A stretch of 35,276 nt of DNA from an uncultured Bacilli bacterium (GTDB lineage Bacteria > Bacillota_I > Bacilli_A > RFN20 > CAG-826). The notes under the pieces were generated by a model. It had not been told where the DNA came from. It was given only the letters and a program-made list of their open reading frames with translations, and searched no databases. A program made the translations under genes and the position numbers. Below are positions 5,443 through 28,657 of the stretch, piece by piece. The stretch is taken from assembly GCA_944368945.1 (NCBI GenBank), contig CALVXH010000009.1:1-35276 (forward strand), written 5' to 3'. Each line of letters begins with the position of its first letter. The first letter of the stretch is position 1.

Positions 5443-8223
5443 TTAATGCAAATGTTTTTCTATTTTTAAGTTTCTTATTACCCTTAAAATTGTTAATGCT
5501 GAAAGAACACTGACTATTAATAAAATTATAATATTAAAAGCAAAATATATAGGATTTGCAATGTTAAATGAAGAAATACCATATGTTTTGCTTAACACAT
5601 TTTCAATTGTCATTGATATAAATATCAAGGATATCGAACTAGTAATGAATGATATTAGAGAATAGAAAAGATTGTCGAATATAAAAATTTTTAAAATTTG
5701 AAATTTATTAAACCCTAATATACAAAATATTGAAATATCTTTTTTAGATTCAATTGCATTTACGATACTAATGATAACTAGGAATATAAACGATGAGATA
5801 ATTGATAATACACTAAATCCAAATAATAGATATTTTAAAAATAACATAGAGTCTTCGATACTTTGTTCAATAGTCAAAATAGGATTTGTTAATTCATAAT
5901 CTGAAAAGAAGCTATTAATGTAATCAATATCTTTTTGGTCTAACTTATTATTTGTTTCAAAGATTATTGATGTTGGAATTAAAGAAAAAGAAGAAATTTT
6001 AAATAGGTCACGAAATAAAGATATTGAAAAATCTTTATTTTGATAAATTGCCACATTGTTATCTCTTTCTTCAACTCCTTTAATCACTAACTTTATGGTT
6101 TTGAACGTGTTTCTTATCTCATTATCAACTGAAGCACTATTTGTTAATAAAGTTACAAAAACTTCTTTATTAATAACATCATCAACTCCAAGTATTTTTC
6201 TAAATCCTTCACTCACAAAAATTTCATTTGGTAATAATTCTATTTGAGTAGACTTAAACTTCAAGTTGTCACTTGATGGCTTAAAAGCATATCCATCAAC
6301 AACATTTTCAGGAACTTTTATATTTAAATATTCATCTTCACCAACCTTTGAATGCGCATCGATAATAAAATCCAACTTTTGACTGTCCAAAGAAAAAAAC
6401 ACAGGTTTAGAAAAGCCACTAAAAAGTGAAGTTCCATTATTAAAATATCCTTGGTTTGTTGAAAAATAATAGTTTTCATATTTAAAATCAATATCATCGA
6501 GATTCTTAATCATGTTTATATCAATAGTATCCTTAAAAACATTATAGACAAATAATTTATTAGTCACTTGAGTATCATACGCGCAGGTTAAAGGTGAATA
6601 TGTGGAATTGTCACTATCAAAAAGGAAATTTTGATAGTCTTCATCATAAAATACTTTATTTAAAAAATACGTTTGAAACTTTTTAGTATGTACATAATAA
6701 ACTTTTTTAAATATCCAAGGATAATCTTCAACTTTATTTAATCTATTGGAAACTGGGAAACGCATTTTTTCTTCAAAAAGAACATTATTAAATAACGGGT
6801 TAGTATGATAAATTCTATTACTTGAATCTAATATAACACCTTTTACTTTAAATAATTGTTCATCACTATATTGCCAGGAATCATTTTGTACTCTTAAAGT
6901 AACTAATAGATTATGAGTTTTTATGTATCTAGCAAGAGAGTCAAAAGTCTTCTCAATTCTTAACTCCATACATATATTTTTCATTTGCTCATAATTAAAA
7001 GACATGATTATTTCATCATCTTCTAGATCTTCTGTTTGAGTAGGATAAATTTCATAACGAGAAAAATCTCTAATGACAATAAACTCATTAAACATTCTTA
7101 TATTAAATCCTTCTATCCTTTTTAATTTTCCTGTTTGAGTTAAATATAAATCATTTCCGTTTGGAAAAAAGTTTTCAAAATCTACTAGATAGTTTGTACC
7201 AAAATAATCTAAGTCGTCCTTATACTTATTTAATAATGAGGCAACATCATTAATTGAACTGGAATAAAAATCAAATATTGTGTTTTTGCAGTCTTTTTTA
7301 TTCAAAACTACTAAATTTTGGTCCAAAACTGATTTAAAAGAATCAACAAGAGATGTATGCAAACCCGTAGACAGGCCTAAAGATAAACCAGTGGAAATTA
7401 AAGAAATTGATAAAAATATGCTTTTAATAACATTTCTAACTTTTCGAATTTTAAGCTTTGAGTAAACATAGTTAAAAATATATTTAAAACGCAAAGTTGA
7501 AGTTTTCTTTTTTGACAACAAGTTCATTAACTTTAACTTCTCTTTTTTCTTTTTAGGTTGGTTCTTTATAACTTTTATTTCTTTATTCTTAAATTCTAAA
7601 ATTGTGTCCGCATATTTTATAGCGTTTTCTTTATCATGAGTTACACAAATAACAGTTGTATTAAGAGATATATTTCTTAATATGTTAAATATATTTTCTG
7701 TGTTAATAGTGTCTAAAGAGCCTGTTGGCTCATCACAAAAAATAACTTCTGGGCTTGTAATAATCGCTCTTCCAATTGCAACTCTTTGTTTTTCTCCTCC
7801 ACTTAAATTCCTAACATATTCATTTCTTATTTTTTCTAAGTCTAAAAGTTTGATTACTTCAGTGACTTTATTAATTTTAAAATCATTTGTTAATTCGCTA
7901 ATCGAATCTAACATTAACATTATGTTATTAAAAACTGTATCATCATCAAATAAATTAAAATTTTGAAAAATATATGAGAATTTATTGCTACGCAATGAAC
8001 ACTTTTCAACTTCTTTATATCTAAAGGCATCATTATCATTAATTAAATATAATCCTTCATAGTTTGTGTCAATTAAAGAAAGTATATTCAGTAAAGTTGT
8101 TTTTCCACAACCTGATTCTCCTAAAATAATATAAAAGCCACTTTCTTTAAATTCAAAAGTAAAATTCTTAATTAATATTTGTTCATTTATTTTTTTAGAT
8201 AATTTTTTTAATTTTAAAATCAT
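5443..8223 (-). CDS. Fused ABC ATPase/MacB-type permease, large partner
   Basis: Single-chain half-transporter of the MacB/type VII ABC family, which exports peptides or lipids or does mechanical work across one membrane. ATPase domain about 1-215: Walker A GESGCGKT 35-42, signature LSGGEKQR from 140, Walker B IFCDEPTG 161-168, H-loop H196. A Lys-rich linker (about 222-262) leads to TM1 (about 265-290), a large extracellular domain of roughly 490 residues, and three C-terminal TM segments typical of FtsX-like permeases. The 926 aa exceed most MacB proteins because of the extracellular part. It starts within the stop of the 673-aa partner (ATGA), so a stoichiometric heterodimer is likely. No two-component system or adaptor lies beside it. 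The substrate is unknown. Confidence 0.85.
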   Translation of the reverse strand: MILKLKKLSKKINEQILIKNFTFEFKESGFYIILGESGCGKTTLLNILSLIDTNYEGLYLINDNDAFRYKEVEKCSLRSNKFSYIFQNFNLFDDDTVFNNIMLMLDSISELTNDFKINKVTEVIKLLDLEKIRNEYVRNLSGGEKQRVAIGRAIITSPEVIFCDEPTGSLDTINTENIFNILRNISLNTTVICVTHDKENAIKYADTILEFKNKEIKVIKNQPKKKKEKLKLMNLLSKKKTSTLRFKYIFNYVYSKLKIRKVRNVIKSIFLSISLISTGLSLGLSTGLHTSLVDSFKSVLDQNLVVLNKKDCKNTIFDFYSSSINDVASLLNKYKDDLDYFGTNYLVDFENFFPNGNDLYLTQTGKLKRIEGFNIRMFNEFIVIRDFSRYEIYPTQTEDLEDDEIIMSFNYEQMKNICMELRIEKTFDSLARYIKTHNLLVTLRVQNDSWQYSDEQLFKVKGVILDSSNRIYHTNPLFNNVLFEEKMRFPVSNRLNKVEDYPWIFKKVYYVHTKKFQTYFLNKVFYDEDYQNFLFDSDNSTYSPLTCAYDTQVTNKLFVYNVFKDTIDINMIKNLDDIDFKYENYYFSTNQGYFNNGTSLFSGFSKPVFFSLDSQKLDFIIDAHSKVGEDEYLNIKVPENVVDGYAFKPSSDNLKFKSTQIELLPNEIFVSEGFRKILGVDDVINKEVFVTLLTNSASVDNEIRNTFKTIKLVIKGVEERDNNVAIYQNKDFSISLFRDLFKISSFSLIPTSIIFETNNKLDQKDIDYINSFFSDYELTNPILTIEQSIEDSMLFLKYLLFGFSVLSIISSFIFLVIISIVNAIESKKDISIFCILGFNKFQILKIFIFDNLFYSLISFITSSISLIFISMTIENVLSKTYGISSFNIANPIYFAFNIIILLIVSVLSALTILRVIRNLKIEKHLH

Positions 8224-10241
8224 TCTTCCTTTAACTCCTCCGCTATGCTATTTAATTTAACGAAACGTAAAGGAATTAAATTTGCTAAATAAACAAAAAT
8301 TATACTAGTTAAAATAATTATTGTTATTACTAGCCCATCAAAATTTATTAAGTTATTCACAATAAAGAAACTTTTTAAAATACGATTTAATATAGATTTT
8401 AATAACAAGCTAAACAATATTCCAATAATTAAACCATTTATCGAATAAACAAATTGCTCAATTATATAAATATTTAAAATTGAATTATCTTTTGCGCCAA
8501 TGCTTGAGACAATCGCAATTTCTTTTCGACTCATAGTAACAGAACTATATGCCAAAAATCCAATAATAAAAAGAGCTGTTAAGGCTAACAAAATTATAAA
8601 AATATTAATTCCAAGAAATACACTCTCAGATAAAGAGATAAAAGAATTTACTAGAGTAAATCCATAATTTTCAATTTTTAAATTTGTGTTTTTTGTTGTT
8701 TTACTCGATATAAGATTTTGGATCTTTTTATTGCTTTTATCATCAAAAGCAAAAACTTTATAAGAGTAACTGCTTATTTCACTTTCGTCTTTTGATATCG
8801 TCACTAAATCATAAAAAGTAGTATTTTTATTTAGATCCAAAGATGAATTTAAAGCTATCGTATTTTTTAAAACTTTCTCAAAGTAAAAAGTTGAATAATA
8901 GGCACATGGTTGATTCATGTAATTAAATTCATTATTAATTTGACCAATTATAAAAGGTATTTCAACTTCGAAAGTATCAATAATTGTTGTATTATTTCTT
9001 TCACTTATATAACTATAATCGCATTTTACAAATAGGCTTATTTCTTTATTAAGTAATTCCTTTTCATTTAACATGTTAGCCAAATTTGAATTAATTAATA
9101 AATAATTATTTGGATAAACTAAATTCGCGTATGGTCTACAACTAAATTTATCTATTGATAACTTATTAAACTTAATCTCTTTTTGTCCTCTAAAAAAATA
9201 ATCATAAGAAAAATCTATATAACAATTAATACCATTAAATAATTCATTTAAATCGTTATAATTTGGTCTAATACTTTTTTCTAATTCAATAGGTGAATTG
9301 TCTATACTCTCACTTTTAACTAAAGACACATTATATGAATTATTATCTGCATAAGATTTAATTAAATCGTTTTTACATGAACTTATACCACGATTTAAAA
9401 AGATTGATAAAATAAGTACAATAATCGAAAAGGCTGCAGAAATAGTACTTATTATATTTCGTTTAAAATTATTTTTTATATTTTTTGTAGCTATTTTATT
9501 TATAAATAAGTTATCATTTTTACTATTTTTGTGATTAGAAATAGCTTTAGAAGTTTTGTTATCCTTACCTAAATTAGGAGAGGAAAACTCTTTTATTTCA
9601 CCATTCTCTAAATATAAAAATCCATCATAAAAAAGTGAAAAAAGTTCCATATTATGTGTGACAACAATTACTAAAATTTCTTTAGACAACTCTTTTAATT
9701 CCTTCATTAATAATAATGAATTTTCGTGATCTAAAGCTCCTGTAGGTTCATCACAAAATAAAATTTTAGGTCGAGCAATAATCGCTCTGATTAAAGCTAC
9801 TCTTTGCTTTTCCCCTCCACTTAAGGTTCCTACTATTTGATTTCTTTTTTCATATAATCCATACTTTTTAAGTAATTCGTCCACTCTATTATCAATTTCC
9901 ATATTTTTAATGGACAAAGCGATTATTAAGTTATCTAAAACACTTAAATCATCTAGTAAATTATATTTTTGAAATAAAATAGAAATATCATTTTTTATAT
10001 AATCAACTCTTTCATTCTTTTTATAAAGTAGAATATTTTTATCATTAAAAATAACTTCTCCAGAATCTGCTTTCATTAAGCAACTTAAAACATTAAGAAG
10101 TGTTGTTTTTCCACTCCCACTTTTTCCAACAATAAAATAAAGTCCTTTATCATTAAAAGAATAATTAATGTCTTTTAATATTAAAGAAGATCGTGATGAA
10201 GATACCTTAAAAGATTTATGTAAGTTTTTAATTACTAACAT
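8220..10241 (-). CDS. Fused ABC ATPase/MacB-type permease, small partner
   Basis: Same architecture as its 926-aa neighbour but with a smaller extracellular domain. ATPase about 1-220: Walker A GKSGSGKT 39-46, signature LSGGEKQR from 140, Walker B LFCDEPTG 161-168, H-loop H196. A polar, Asn/Lys-rich linker precedes TM1 (about 263-283); the extracellular region runs to about 535 and three TM segments follow. Both ATP sites of the presumed heterodimer look complete. Its stop TGA overlaps the partner's ATG. The ribosome-binding site AAAGGG sits in the loop of a perfect 12-bp hairpin that ends at the ATG, suggesting control of expression at this point. The substrate is not evident; candidates are antimicrobial peptides, lipoproteins or cell-wall remodelling. 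Confidence 0.85.
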   Translation of the reverse strand: MLVIKNLHKSFKVSSSRSSLILKDINYSFNDKGLYFIVGKSGSGKTTLLNVLSCLMKADSGEVIFNDKNILLYKKNERVDYIKNDISILFQKYNLLDDLSVLDNLIIALSIKNMEIDNRVDELLKKYGLYEKRNQIVGTLSGGEKQRVALIRAIIARPKILFCDEPTGALDHENSLLLMKELKELSKEILVIVVTHNMELFSLFYDGFLYLENGEIKEFSSPNLGKDNKTSKAISNHKNSKNDNLFINKIATKNIKNNFKRNIISTISAAFSIIVLILSIFLNRGISSCKNDLIKSYADNNSYNVSLVKSESIDNSPIELEKSIRPNYNDLNELFNGINCYIDFSYDYFFRGQKEIKFNKLSIDKFSCRPYANLVYPNNYLLINSNLANMLNEKELLNKEISLFVKCDYSYISERNNTTIIDTFEVEIPFIIGQINNEFNYMNQPCAYYSTFYFEKVLKNTIALNSSLDLNKNTTFYDLVTISKDESEISSYSYKVFAFDDKSNKKIQNLISSKTTKNTNLKIENYGFTLVNSFISLSESVFLGINIFIILLALTALFIIGFLAYSSVTMSRKEIAIVSSIGAKDNSILNIYIIEQFVYSINGLIIGILFSLLLKSILNRILKSFFIVNNLINFDGLVITIIILTSIIFVYLANLIPLRFVKLNSIAEELKEE

Positions 10242-10272
10242 GTTGTTATTTTCCCTTTCAAAAATAACAACA
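10241..10272 (-). repeat. Perfect 12-bp inverted repeat with RBS in loop
   Basis: On the minus strand TGTTGTTATTTT and AAAATAACAACA are exact reverse complements separated by the 8-nt loop TGAAAGGG. The last base of the right arm is the A of the ATG of the 673-aa ABC gene, and AAAGGG in the loop is its Shine-Dalgarno. It is not followed by a T-run, so it is not an ordinary terminator. It could be an operator for a dimeric repressor or an RNA translational switch. Confidence 0.8.
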
Positions 10273-10284
10273 ATTCGAATTTAA

Positions 10285-10935
10285 TTATTTTTCCAAATTC
10301 TTTATAACTTTATATAATTCCTCGTAAGAATCAACTATTTTATATGGTTTTGTTTCACTATCATAATGTCTAGGAGCACCTTTAAATAAGATACATTTTA
10401 TCTTAGCATTTTCTGCAGCCAAGTAATCGAATTTTGTGTCTCCAATCATAATAGTTTCATCTTTAGAAACATTTAGTTTATCGATGATGTAATTAAGCAT
10501 CTCTGGATCTGGCTTAGTTTTAAAATGATCTGAACTTGTCAATATTAAAGAAAACATGTTTTCAAAACCATACTTTTCTAAAGTCTTAAGAGCCATCTCT
10601 CTATTTTTACTTGTAGCAATAGCAAATAAATAGCCTTCTTCATGAAGTTTTCTTAAAACTGGTAATTCATTGGGAAAAAGTTTTAAATAATCCATGTCGT
10701 AATATTTAGCAGTTCTAGTTCTATATTCCTTTAATATAAAATCAGGATCTTTTTCAGGAAAAGCTAGTTTAATAGAATCCATGACTGGCGGGCCACTAAA
10801 GCCTCTAACAAACTCCCTATCAATCTTATAATCCTTAGGTTTATATAGTTTAAAAAGTTCTTTCCATGTTTCATAAAGTACTTCATCAGTATCGATTAAA
10901 GTACCATCCATATCAAAAATTAATAGTTTTACCAT
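10285..10935 (-). CDS. ppaX: HAD-family phosphatase, PpaX-like
   Basis: HAD-superfamily hydrolase, subfamily IA. Motif I DMDGT (nucleophile D8, acid/base D10), motif II around ATSK, motif III Lys in KTKPDPE and motif IV GDTKFD are all intact; a helical cap lies between about 15 and 85. Length 216 aa equals B. subtilis PpaX, the pyrophosphatase that removes PPi made when HPr(Ser-P) is dephosphorylated. The call rests mostly on position: the gene overlaps the end of lgt by 7 bp, as in the hprK-lgt-ppaX operons of Bacilli. HprK itself is not in the window. A phosphoglycolate-type substrate cannot be excluded. Confidence 0.7.
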   Translation of the reverse strand: MVKLLIFDMDGTLIDTDEVLYETWKELFKLYKPKDYKIDREFVRGFSGPPVMDSIKLAFPEKDPDFILKEYRTRTAKYYDMDYLKLFPNELPVLRKLHEEGYLFAIATSKNREMALKTLEKYGFENMFSLILTSSDHFKTKPDPEMLNYIIDKLNVSKDETIMIGDTKFDYLAAENAKIKCILFKGAPRHYDSETKPYKIVDSYEELYKVIKNLEK

Positions 10936-15713: not shown

Positions 15714-17534
15714 ATGAAGATGAGAAATGTCGCTATTATCGCACACGTTGACCATGGAAAAACTACCCTAGTTAATCAACTTCTTAAATGTAGCGGAACA
15801 TTTAGAGAAAACGAAAAATTAGAAGATAGAGCAATGGATAGTAACGCGATCGAAAGAGAAAGAGGCATTACCATCTTAGCTAAAACTACAAGTATTAAAT
15901 ATAAAGATTACAAAATTAATATTCTTGATACTCCAGGGCACGCAGATTTTGGTGGCGAAGTTGAAAGAATTATGCACATGGTTGATGGTTGCTTACTTCT
16001 TGTTGACGCATTTGAAGGTACAATGCCTCAAACAAGATTTGTTCTAAAAAAAGCAATTGAAGCTGGTGTTAAACCTGTAGTCATTGTTAATAAAGTTGAC
16101 CGTCCAAACGCTAATCCAGAAAAAGCTGTTGATGAAGTTTTACAACTTTTCATGGAACTTGGTGCTCCAGATGATTTCCTTGATTTTAAAGTTGCTTATA
16201 CGAGCGCTTTGAATGGAACAAGTTCGTTTAGTAGCGATCCTTCAACACAAAAACCTGGAATGGATCCAGTTTACGAATTAATTATTAATGAAATTCCTGA
16301 GCCAAAAGTTGAAGAAAACGGACCACTTCAACTTCAAGCAGCATTACTTGATTATAATGATTATGTTGGAAGAATGGGAATTGGTAGAATTCAAAGAGGG
16401 ACAATTAAAGTTGGCACTACAGTTTCTTGTGCTAGACTTGATGGAACAGCAAAGAGTTTTAAAATTCTTAAATTAATCGGATATTATGGATTAAAGAAAA
16501 TTGAAATTGAAGAGGCTCATGCTGGTGAAATCGTCGCAGTAGCTGGCTTACCAGATATTAATATTGGTGAAACAATTTGTGATGTAAACAATATTGAACC
16601 ATTGCCACTTCTTCATATTGATGAACCAACTCTCCAAATGACATTTGGTACAAATAGTTCACCATTTGCAGGACAAGATGGAAAATTATTAACAGCAAGA
16701 CAAATCGAAGAAAGACTTTATAAAGAAGCCCAAAAAGATGTTTCTTTAAAAGTTAAGAGAGTTCCAAACAGTGAAACATGGGTTGTCAGTGGTAGAGGCG
16801 AACTTCACTTAGGAATCTTAATCGAAAATATGCGTAGAGAAGGATTTGAAATCGAAGTTAGTAGACCACAAGTTATTATTAAAGAGGTCGATGGAGTCAA
16901 GGAAGAGCCTTATGAAGATTTAAGTGTCGAGGTTCCAAATGAATTCGTTGGTGATATTATGACTTCTCTTGGCTCTAGAGATGCTGAATTAATTGATATG
17001 GACGCTGGAGATGTTAATACCAAAATTAACTATGTTATACCATCAAGAGGCTTAATAGGATTTGTTACTAATTTCTTAACTTTAACTAAAGGATATGGAA
17101 TTATCGCTCATACATTTAAAGAATATCGTCCAGTTGCTCAAGGCAAGATTGGAGAAAGAGCTATTGGTGTTTTAGTAGCAACCGAAAATGGCCAAGCCAC
17201 CCCTTATGCTATTCAACACGTTGAAGAAAGAGGCGTTATGTTTATTTATCCAGGCGCTCAAATCTACGAAGGTATGATCGTTGGCGAAAATAAATATGAT
17301 ACTGATTTAAGTGTTAATGTTTGCCAAACTAAAAACTTAACTAACCAAAGAAGTGCTAATAAGGATCAAACAGTCGTTTTAAAATCTCCTAGAAAAATGA
17401 CTCTTGAAGCATGCTTAGATTATATTAATAGTGATGAACTTGTCGAAGTTACACCAAATAACTTTAGAATGAGAAAGAAGATTTTAAATAACGCTGAACG
17501 TAAAAAGTGGGAAGCTAAATATAAAAACATCTAA
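15714..17534 (+). CDS. typA: Translational GTPase TypA/BipA
   Basis: Ribosome-associated GTPase of the EF-G/LepA group, needed for large-subunit assembly and growth under stress or cold. G1 AHVDHGKT 10-17, G2 GIT in RERGITI, G3 DTPGH 72-76 and G4 NKVD 126-129 are intact; domain II, an EF-G domain V-like region and the TypA-specific C-terminal domain follow. The 606-aa length is standard. GGAGGT lies 9 nt before the ATG. It is the only rightward gene in the left two thirds of the window, divergent from uvrA, with its own promoter and a strong terminator. Confidence 0.97.
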
Positions 17535-17552: not shown

Positions 17553-17591
17553 AAAAAAGAACCATCATAGTAATGAAATGGTTCTTTTTTT
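17553..17591. terminator. Bidirectional terminator between typA and the ABC permease
   Basis: AAAAAAGAACCAT and ATGGTTCTTTTTT are perfect 13-bp complements around a 12-nt loop, with T-runs for both directions. It serves typA rightward and the FtsX permease gene leftward. The rest of the gap, about 17600-17640, is a G/C-richer islet I cannot explain. Confidence 0.88.
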
Positions 17592-28000: not shown

Positions 28001-28312
28001 ATGTTAATTCATTTAGGAAATAAAGAACAATTTAAGGAAGTAGTTAGTAAAGGTATTACACTTGTTGATTTTTTTGCCACATGGTGTGGACCATGCAGAA
28101 TGTTAACTCCAGAACTTGAAAAATTAGCTGAAAAAGATCAATCAATCAATGTTTTAAAAATTGATGTTGATGAATTCCAAGAATTAGCTGCTCAATTCAA
28201 TGTTCGCGCAGTTCCTACATTAGTCTTATTTAAAGACGGCCAAGTCGTTACAACAGGTTCAGGTTTTAGACCTTTAGCAAGTTTAGAACAATTCGTTGCT
28301 CAAGCTAAATAA
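28001..28312 (+). CDS. trxA: Thioredoxin
   Basis: Classical cytosolic thioredoxin of 103 aa with the active site WCGPC at 28-32 and the cis-Pro in RAVPTLV. It reduces disulfides, for example in ribonucleotide reductase or peroxiredoxins. AAGGAGGT sits 6 nt before the ATG, the strongest ribosome-binding site in this region. It lies 17 bp after the TraX-like gene with no terminator between, so it may be co-transcribed. It ends at a perfect hairpin terminator. Thioredoxin reductase is not in the window. Confidence 0.96.
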   Translation: MLIHLGNKEQFKEVVSKGITLVDFFATWCGPCRMLTPELEKLAEKDQSINVLKIDVDEFQELAAQFNVRAVPTLVLFKDGQVVTTGSGFRPLASLEQFVAQAK

Positions 28313-28331
28313 TATATAATTTTTGATTATT

Positions 28332-28362
28332 AAAACCGATAAGTTATGTGCTTATCGGTTTT
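28332..28362. terminator. Bidirectional terminator, trxA / small membrane gene
   Basis: AAAACCGATAAG and CTTATCGGTTTT form a perfect 12-bp stem around TTATGTG. It follows trxA by 20 bp, and its right end overlaps the stop codon of the leftward gene at 28361, so it serves both converging transcripts. Confidence 0.85.
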
Positions 28363-28657
28363 ATACTACAGCAATTAAGAATATTACAAACATTATAAGT
28401 GAAATAATTAATAGGATTACTCCTAAACTCATTCCAAAATTTGAAATGTCTTTTCCTTCTTTAATATTTTTTCTAGAGAAATGAACTCCAATTGAACTAA
28501 CGGCAATTGCAGCTAAAGATAAAGCTAATGATGCTACACTTAAATATAAATATACAAAAGATAAGCAGACAAAAATAAACGAAGCAACGCTTAATGCGCA
28601 TCCAATTATTCCACAAAAAGTAAATCTATATTTTTTTCTTTTTTCATTTTCTTCCAT
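28361..28657 (-). CDS. Small membrane protein, DUF4190-like
   Basis: 98-aa protein I do not recognise with certainty. A charged N-terminus (about 1-11) is followed by two close hydrophobic segments (about 13-55) and one at about 74-97; the middle NIKEGKDISNFGMSLGVI resembles small DUF4190-type proteins (G..LG.I). No catalytic motif is seen. It starts 1 nt after the stop of the VanZ-like gene and has no good ribosome-binding site, so it is probably translated by coupling. Its role is unknown. Confidence 0.65.
   Translation of the reverse strand: MEENEKRKKYRFTFCGIIGCALSVASFIFVCLSFVYLYLSVASLALSLAAIAVSSIGVHFSRKNIKEGKDISNFGMSLGVILLIISLIMFVIFLIAVV

Follow-up and report, generated by a model that had tools for sequence, protein, structure and literature searches.

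A start-region hairpin that overlaps a competence-type promoter-like element may guard an ABC exporter gene of an uncultured Bacilli bacterium against read-through

The whole stretch of DNA that was analyzed (the window) comprised 35,276 nt of contig CALVXH010000009.1 from the assembly of an uncultured Bacilli bacterium (GCA_944368945.1). On its minus strand, a HAD-family gene was found to be followed by two ABC exporter genes, with 43 nt between the stop of the former and the first exporter start. The features of this region were as follows.

5443..8223, minus strand: second ABC exporter of the pair, 926 aa, whose start overlaps the first (ORF list, Pfam)
8220..10241, minus strand: ABC exporter, 673 aa, with an N-terminal ATPase and a C-terminal FtsX-like permease (ORF list, Pfam)
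10241..10272, minus strand: hairpin, with left arm 10272-10261, loop 10260-10253 and right arm 10252-10241 (5′ to 3′ on the minus strand)
10253..10259, minus strand: Shine-Dalgarno-like GAAAGGG, in the hairpin loop (sequence)
10259..10272, minus strand: box 2 of a two-box element, TGTTGTTATTTTTG, containing the entire left arm of the hairpin (matrix match 10259-10298)
10285..10935, minus strand: HAD-family hydrolase, the co-directional upstream gene (ORF list, Pfam)
10288..10294, minus strand: box 1 of the element, GGAAAAA, overlapping the last codons of the HAD gene (sequence, matrix match)

Both exporters carry ATPase and FtsX-like permease fused in one chain, and the best NCBIfam match of both was TIGR03608, a putative bacteriocin exporter, under its cut-off. 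BceAB-type exporters likewise combine an ATPase with an FtsX-like permease and have an adjacent two-component system. An earlier sequence-only reading of this DNA had set the pair apart from them for want of an adjacent regulator gene, and we agree: no regulator was seen among the neighboring ORFs (ORF list by eye; five window proteins against Pfam), nor did a sensor kinase and response regulator adjoin the exporter in the ORF list by eye; the fusion of ATPase and permease in each of two genes is a further difference. No transposase was seen by eye in the window ORF list, the neighbors being of lgt and HAD type, and the exporter gene did not lie on an insertion sequence; orthologues at E ≤ 1e-60 were detected in 24 of the 26 genomes sampled from this AT-rich genus (own genome included), with G006 (a fragment, residues 1-218) and G015 lacking one at this threshold. 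Rfam identified one tRNA within the window.

The minus-strand leader of the exporter gene reads GGAAAAA-TAATTAAATTCGAAT-TGTTGTTATTTT-TGAAAGGG-AAAATAACAACA-TG. The sequence-only reading had described a perfect 12-bp hairpin with the Shine-Dalgarno (SD) sequence in an 8-nt loop and a right arm that ends on the A of the ATG, and this was borne out: the arms (10241-10252 and 10261-10272) were complementary at 12 of 12 positions and 8 nt apart, the loop was filled by the SD-like GAAAGGG, and the final base of the right arm was the A of the start codon of ORF 10241..8220. Its view that chance was an unlikely source also held. Perfect arms of at least 12 nt with a loop of 3-12 nt were found at three places in the window (four listed hits, two at one place) versus two such repeats in total over 12 shuffled windows, and the 91-nt exporter leader folded at −15.3 kcal/mol (z −2.78), with 3 of 200 shuffles equally good. 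The other perfect repeats (17553-17590 and 28331-28363; 12-13 nt) lie just past ORFs 15714..17534 and 28001..28312 and are probably ordinary terminators. Since these two sit at gene ends, a long perfect repeat alone is not unusual in the window, but the position of the exporter hairpin is. Its stem is A+T-rich, extends to the start codon and is without a T-run after it.

Comparable structures were found in the relatives. The start codon or positions −18 to −6 were predicted to be paired, at a mean probability of at least 0.7, in 19 of the 24 ABC leaders (exceptions: G001, G002, G010, G020, and G023), and the ABC starts folded lower than 243 other genus starts chosen by an ORF-and-SD rule rather than from annotation (mean −12.9 versus −7.4 kcal/mol, p = 3.7e-9). 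The GTG start was paired in the G009 leader, while the leaders of the G003 group have no clear SD and a paired ATG (pairing of 0.84-0.91 in G003, G014, and G021). The stem of the G016 leader, ACCTCCTTT-GTATTAGT-AAAGGAGGT, was followed by a T-run. Beyond the genus, six orthologues of the family were retrieved, and a comparable hairpin was seen by eye in five of them (L024 and L028-L031; not L026). The sequence of the arms varied between species.

At the window site the left arm of the hairpin was found to coincide with box 2 of a promoter-like element common to competence-type genes, a relationship that had escaped the sequence-only reading. The word CTTGTAT occurred no more than 40 nt from the start in 11 of 24 ABC orthologues compared with 1 of 243 controls, the sole control being recA of G021. 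The word CATTCTTGTAT was detected in 81 copies over the 26 genomes versus 21 for the reversed word, and in 57 versus 5 copies in G002, G003, G014, G021, G022, and G023 jointly. Of these 81 matches, 30 made loci, 11 of which were aligned and 19 not (inside genes, in genomes without enrichment or, once, a duplicate of an ABC locus), and 5 further matches (G005, G009, G012, and G018) were left out. A gap-free alignment of 58 copies (7 before ABC genes), in which CATTCTTGTAT is invariant by selection, revealed an upstream box (GTGAATA, GCATAAA, or GGGATAAA) at a fixed distance and an SD-like sequence downstream; outside the selected word, T, A, and G occupied positions −6, −2, and −1 in 56, 55, and 44 copies, respectively. 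The genes behind the copies included comEA, dprA, recA, a C39-peptidase exporter and a possible DNA methylase (a weak match, below cut-off), and presumably a ComFA-like helicase (by name), rpsF and a thioredoxin-reductase-like gene. One element was thus found before several DNA-uptake and recombination genes (comEA, comFA-like, dprA, and recA), and the label "competence" as used here refers to this gene content. Among the 26 genomes, comFA was found in 25 and dprA, recA, and comEA each in all. Inspection by eye of the sequences before these four genes revealed clade-specific forms of the element, including TACCCCCC...CTACTTGTATA, GGTAAAT...GCATCTTGTTAGTA, and GAAAAA...TGTTGTATTAGTG, with a box spacing that was near-fixed inside each clade and differed among clades.

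The form of the element in the own genome and G009 was GAAAAA-N15/16-TGTTGT with an SD downstream. A core search returned 8 matches in the own genome versus 1 for the reversed core and 13 in G009 versus 0, and 20 of the 21 were preceded by a GAAAA-type box at a distance of about 21 nt (by eye); the two-box pattern returned 8 and 12 matches versus 2 and 3, and of these 20 matches six were inspected, at least one of which (L349) lay inside a gene and appeared chance-like. A matrix was then built from 22 element copies chosen for likeness, none of them before an ABC gene of the exporter family (L246 was excluded as it has no box 1). Under this matrix, the match at 10259-10298 ranked first of 70474 window positions at 16.8 bits, compared with 12.0 bits for the best of 20 shuffled windows and 27-42 bits for the 22 source copies; the window element is probably a worn, weak copy. 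Overall, it is very likely that ABC, comEA, comFA, dprA, and recA have a two-box element in common, as judged from these alignments and searches.

This element is likely a promoter, since (i) its two boxes at a fixed distance stand directly before genes and before RNA-like copies without an ORF; and (ii) in several cases it stands directly after the T-run of a terminator-like hairpin that belongs to the upstream gene. Such hairpins reached box 1, or stopped about 10 nt or less short of it, for comFA of G003, G021, and G014 and for ABC of G003 and G014. Box 2 was very close to the ATG in the G003 group; transcripts there would have almost no leader, in keeping with the absence of an SD. Three other features were considered: inspection by eye of the sequence ahead of box 2 showed no TTGACA-type −35 box; box 1 as a ComX-like −10 (GTGAATA resembling CGAATA) was dropped, as other clades have CCCCCC or GAAAAA there; and a TTG-TAT-TAG mini-ORF was dropped, as it was not conserved.

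The element was also observed in other settings. Copies without an ORF at hand were followed by a common sequence in the own genome (L229, L231, L235, L239, and L241), in G009 (L228, L232, L236, and L243), and in another clade (L105, L108, L110, L113, L114, L117, L119, L121, L124, L132, and L139), with about 300 nt alignable in the own genome and G009; these are candidate multicopy RNAs that would be under the same promoter. Rfam, run on 17 candidate-RNA loci, returned nothing at gathering score and sub-threshold, chance-like matches in 6. A reductase-like gene lay 130-140 nt downstream of the element in L108, L124, and L132. A TnpB/Cas12f1-like protein (PF07282, PF01385) was encoded behind a copy in G009 (L242:1547-2770), and the C39-peptidase exporter behind a copy in one relative (L084). 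A 60-66 aa peptide with EL..IK.GEAITLAA, which recalls leader-type bacteriocin or pheromone peptides, was found behind the element at L233:1527-1706 (no Pfam match for L233), with similar peptides in L240, L089, L116, L129, and L141; in the last four it precedes what we take to be a ribosomal-protein-L21-like gene. Many comFA-like genes (e.g., L159 of the own genome) had no ATG, GTG, or TTG behind the SD, and a start rule that penalized ATT and ATA still picked them in 17 of 25 rows (G022 doubtful); a conserved non-canonical start codon of comFA is possible on this pattern. In L337 (own genome, from 1501) and L351 (G009), an element copy sat in an inverted repeat and pointed at the 3′ end of a HAD-like gene, so its RNA would run against that gene.

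Pairing at the start was compared across the five genes that have the element. The mean predicted cost of opening six SD bases was 12.3 kcal/mol for comEA (n = 23), 8.3 for comFA (25), 7.2 for dprA (24), 5.8 for ABC (24), 3.8 for recA (26), and 2.3 for controls (243). The costs of comEA, comFA, and dprA were higher than that of recA (p ≤ 9e-5), while ABC did not differ clearly from recA by SD opening alone (p = 0.086) and was above controls when SD and start codon were opened together (p = 3.5e-9). Shuffling the sequence upstream of the SD lowered the cost by 7.5 kcal/mol for comEA, 3.6 for comFA, 3.3 for dprA, 2.8 for ABC, and 0.5 for recA, and all 40 own shuffles were beaten by 15 of 23 comEA, 8 of 25 comFA, 7 of 24 dprA, 6 of 24 ABC, and 0 of 26 recA genes. 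The recA group was above controls (p about 1e-4) yet not above its own shuffles, and thus part of the opening-cost effect is due to composition. In a swap test, which like all the other tests treated the species as independent (recA is subject to the same kinship), the observed complementarity was reached by 0 of 5000 permutations for each of ABC, comEA, comFA, and dprA and by 1998 of 5000 for recA. Covariation, which the sequence-only reading had put forward as the check on its hairpin, is therefore present: across the 24 ABC orthologues, the arms were more complementary within than between species. In ABC, comEA, comFA, and dprA alike, the arms are species-specific yet complementary.

The upstream gene was found to be co-directional, as assigned by a simple ORF rule, for 20 of 22 ABC, 23 of 23 comEA, 23 of 24 comFA, and 24 of 24 dprA genes (90 of 93) and for 26 of 26 recA genes; the median gaps to the upstream ORF were 62-134 nt, with 63 nt for recA. 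Having the element and a co-directional upstream gene but no lock, recA serves as a negative control. ABC is the least uniform of the four locked genes. The SD-plus-start measure was under the shuffle mean for ABC of G003, G014, and G021, in spite of the paired ATG, as the SD rule is unfit for genes without an SD; it was not clearly above the shuffles for ABC of G004, G017, and G020, and comFA and ABC of G010 had little pairing. As to the samples, the comEA start rule failed in 3 of 26 genomes (G007, G015, and G018), the upstream sequence was too short for dprA of G015 and G020, comFA of G022 was doubtful, and three regions (dprA of G010, dprA of G013, and recA of G010) were drawn from within the gene and stayed in the opening-cost, shuffle, swap, and neighbor tests.

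These results suggest, as the best explanation and a moderately probable one, a read-through lock in which the hairpin silences the exporter gene unless its own promoter fires, and we infer that this lock works in the cell. The exporter gene would be a member of a competence-like regulon that has the two-box promoter-like element in common. RNA running in from the co-directional upstream gene would carry both arms, fold and hide the SD and start codon, and where a T-run follows the hairpin, the fold may terminate the read-through. A transcript initiated at the element would start 6-7 nt past the TTGTNN hexamer, inside the repeat, and, with the left arm absent, would stay open; the hairpin would thus act on read-through RNA only. 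At the window site the promoter-like core lies in the left arm, and a putative RNA start inside the repeat follows from the position of the element. The predicted cost of opening the SD and start of the window gene was 6.1-7.4 kcal/mol for 5′ ends at −31 to −45, dropped via 5.2, 3.2, 2.1, and 1.6 kcal/mol for intermediate 5′ ends and was 1.3 kcal/mol at −20 and −18; we rely on this window series, as the promoter-initiated values of the other genes use guessed start sites. By prediction, the SD or start is hidden on upstream-initiated RNA. The sequence-only reading had held that a transcript starting inside the repeat would speak against its hairpin, and such a start is probably the case for the induced transcript.

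That reading had offered an operator or an RNA switch, and it is the RNA level that the swap test supports. The hairpin may belong to the normal mRNA, started upstream of the left arm, and act as a switch, an attenuator or a translational leader opened by protein or RNA. Though the coevolving arms and the many copies with a G+C stem and T-run, which are attenuator-like, are in keeping with this, we consider it rather unlikely, as (i) box 2 sits in the left arm or loop; (ii) terminator-like hairpins of the upstream gene at or about 10 nt from box 1 in several genes leave little room for another promoter; and (iii) recA has the element without the lock. It is improbable that the hairpins just terminate the upstream genes, with genome compactness bringing them onto the SD of the next gene. 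T-runs were present at many copies (including comEA, dprA, and comFA of the own genome) and the upstream gaps were short, both as such terminators would have it; recA, however, with equally short gaps and a co-directional neighbor throughout, had no pairing excess over shuffles. The window copy, moreover, has an A+T-rich stem that reaches the start codon and lacks the U-run of an intrinsic terminator or attenuator, and ABC and comFA of clade A seem to have a lock-like hairpin plus a separate upstream terminator. A perfect dyad at a gene start could also be a DNA operator of a dimeric repressor, but this is very improbable, since the arm sequence changes between species with complementarity kept, the 34-nt hairpin sequence occurred once in its own genome assembly, and arm copies with one mismatch numbered 3 in the window (two being the arms themselves) against a chance mean of 1.73. 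An RNA thermometer, to which the A+U-rich stem over the start region would be suited, is the least credible option, as opening is predicted to cost 5.6 kcal/mol at 50°C and 4.3 at 60°C and sister genes and relatives have G+C-rich stems.

With respect to the sigma factor that would read the element, the only sigma besides RpoD detected by Pfam Sigma70_r2 in the own genome was ECF-type, and it is a candidate for the sigma of the regulon. The distribution of the ECF sigma did not match that of the element: G018, G022, and G024 (74% complete) all carry the element, and none yielded an intact relative. Upstream of the ECF sigma genes (L278:940-1452, minus strand, and relatives) lies a separate conserved sequence, TTCCAATAA...TCGTATTAATAGTG; it has the look of an autoregulated promoter, and its second half resembles box 2. 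Two RpoD-like sigma genes about 2 kb or less apart were observed in G003, G010, G014, G017, G018, G021, and G022.

Protection of this type is known from mobile elements. In IS10 and IS200, incoming upstream RNA folds, which hides the start or ends transcription, while own-promoter RNA is free; transposase genes were reportedly found to be protected from external promoters in this manner by Davis, Simons and Kleckner in 1985 (IS10/Tn10) and by Beuzon et al. in 1999 (IS200). As in IS10, upstream RNA is predicted here to fold and own-promoter RNA to stay open; unlike these mobile elements, the present case concerns a chromosomal gene set with one promoter-like element and arms that differ by gene and species. 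Transcription attenuators located 5′ of genes, including "mobile attenuators" before transposases, are described in PMC2965389; they similarly place a terminator-like hairpin just before a gene. The word "competence" has 0 occurrences in the main text of that paper. Classical attenuators are located downstream of the promoter and ahead of the start codon, whereas the promoter-like core here is inside the repeat. As far as the available portions of the accounts go, the late competence regulon of pneumococcus is under ComX (PMC6560143) and that of Lactobacillus sakei under SigH (PMC3364868), and both resemble the present gene set in their dprA, comEA, comFA, recA, and ssb-type content; neither portion mentions a hairpin lock. 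The ComX consensus given there, TTTTTNHNNNYTHTTMCGAATADWNWRRD, differs from the element motif, and the candidate sigma here is ECF-like. A box of CGAATA type located 7-8 nt ahead of the transcription start, as in ComX/SigH promoters, is not a feature of the gene set: TTCGAATT precedes the left arm in the window, but dprA, comEA, recA, and comFA of the own genome have no such box (by eye). In the L. sakei data available, SigH raised dprA strongly (qPCR 2163) and recA little (2.7) (PMC3364868), a split that corresponds to the lock/no-lock split observed here.

More tentatively, read-through protection may extend to the whole chromosomal regulon. The uptake-only genes would have their promoter core running through a species-specific hairpin, at its left arm or loop, and this hairpin would stop or silence RNA arriving from upstream; recA, which has a dual use and shares the promoter, would carry no lock. 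The multicopy RNAs and a TnpB-like gene of one relative would be further targets of this promoter. The literature searched, which covered few subscription journals, yielded no description of a competence-gene lock of this type. In compact genomes the gaps between genes are short, and a tightly switched program therefore needs protection from read-through. The element would provide a motif-based route to the competence regulon of this genus, and the regulon would place the exporter pair in a context; among named families, the pair best matches one of bacteriocin export (below cut-off). If the lock is real, a protection known from insertion sequences would be applied gene by gene to a competence-type program, and the members that must be strictly off would be readable from sequence alone.
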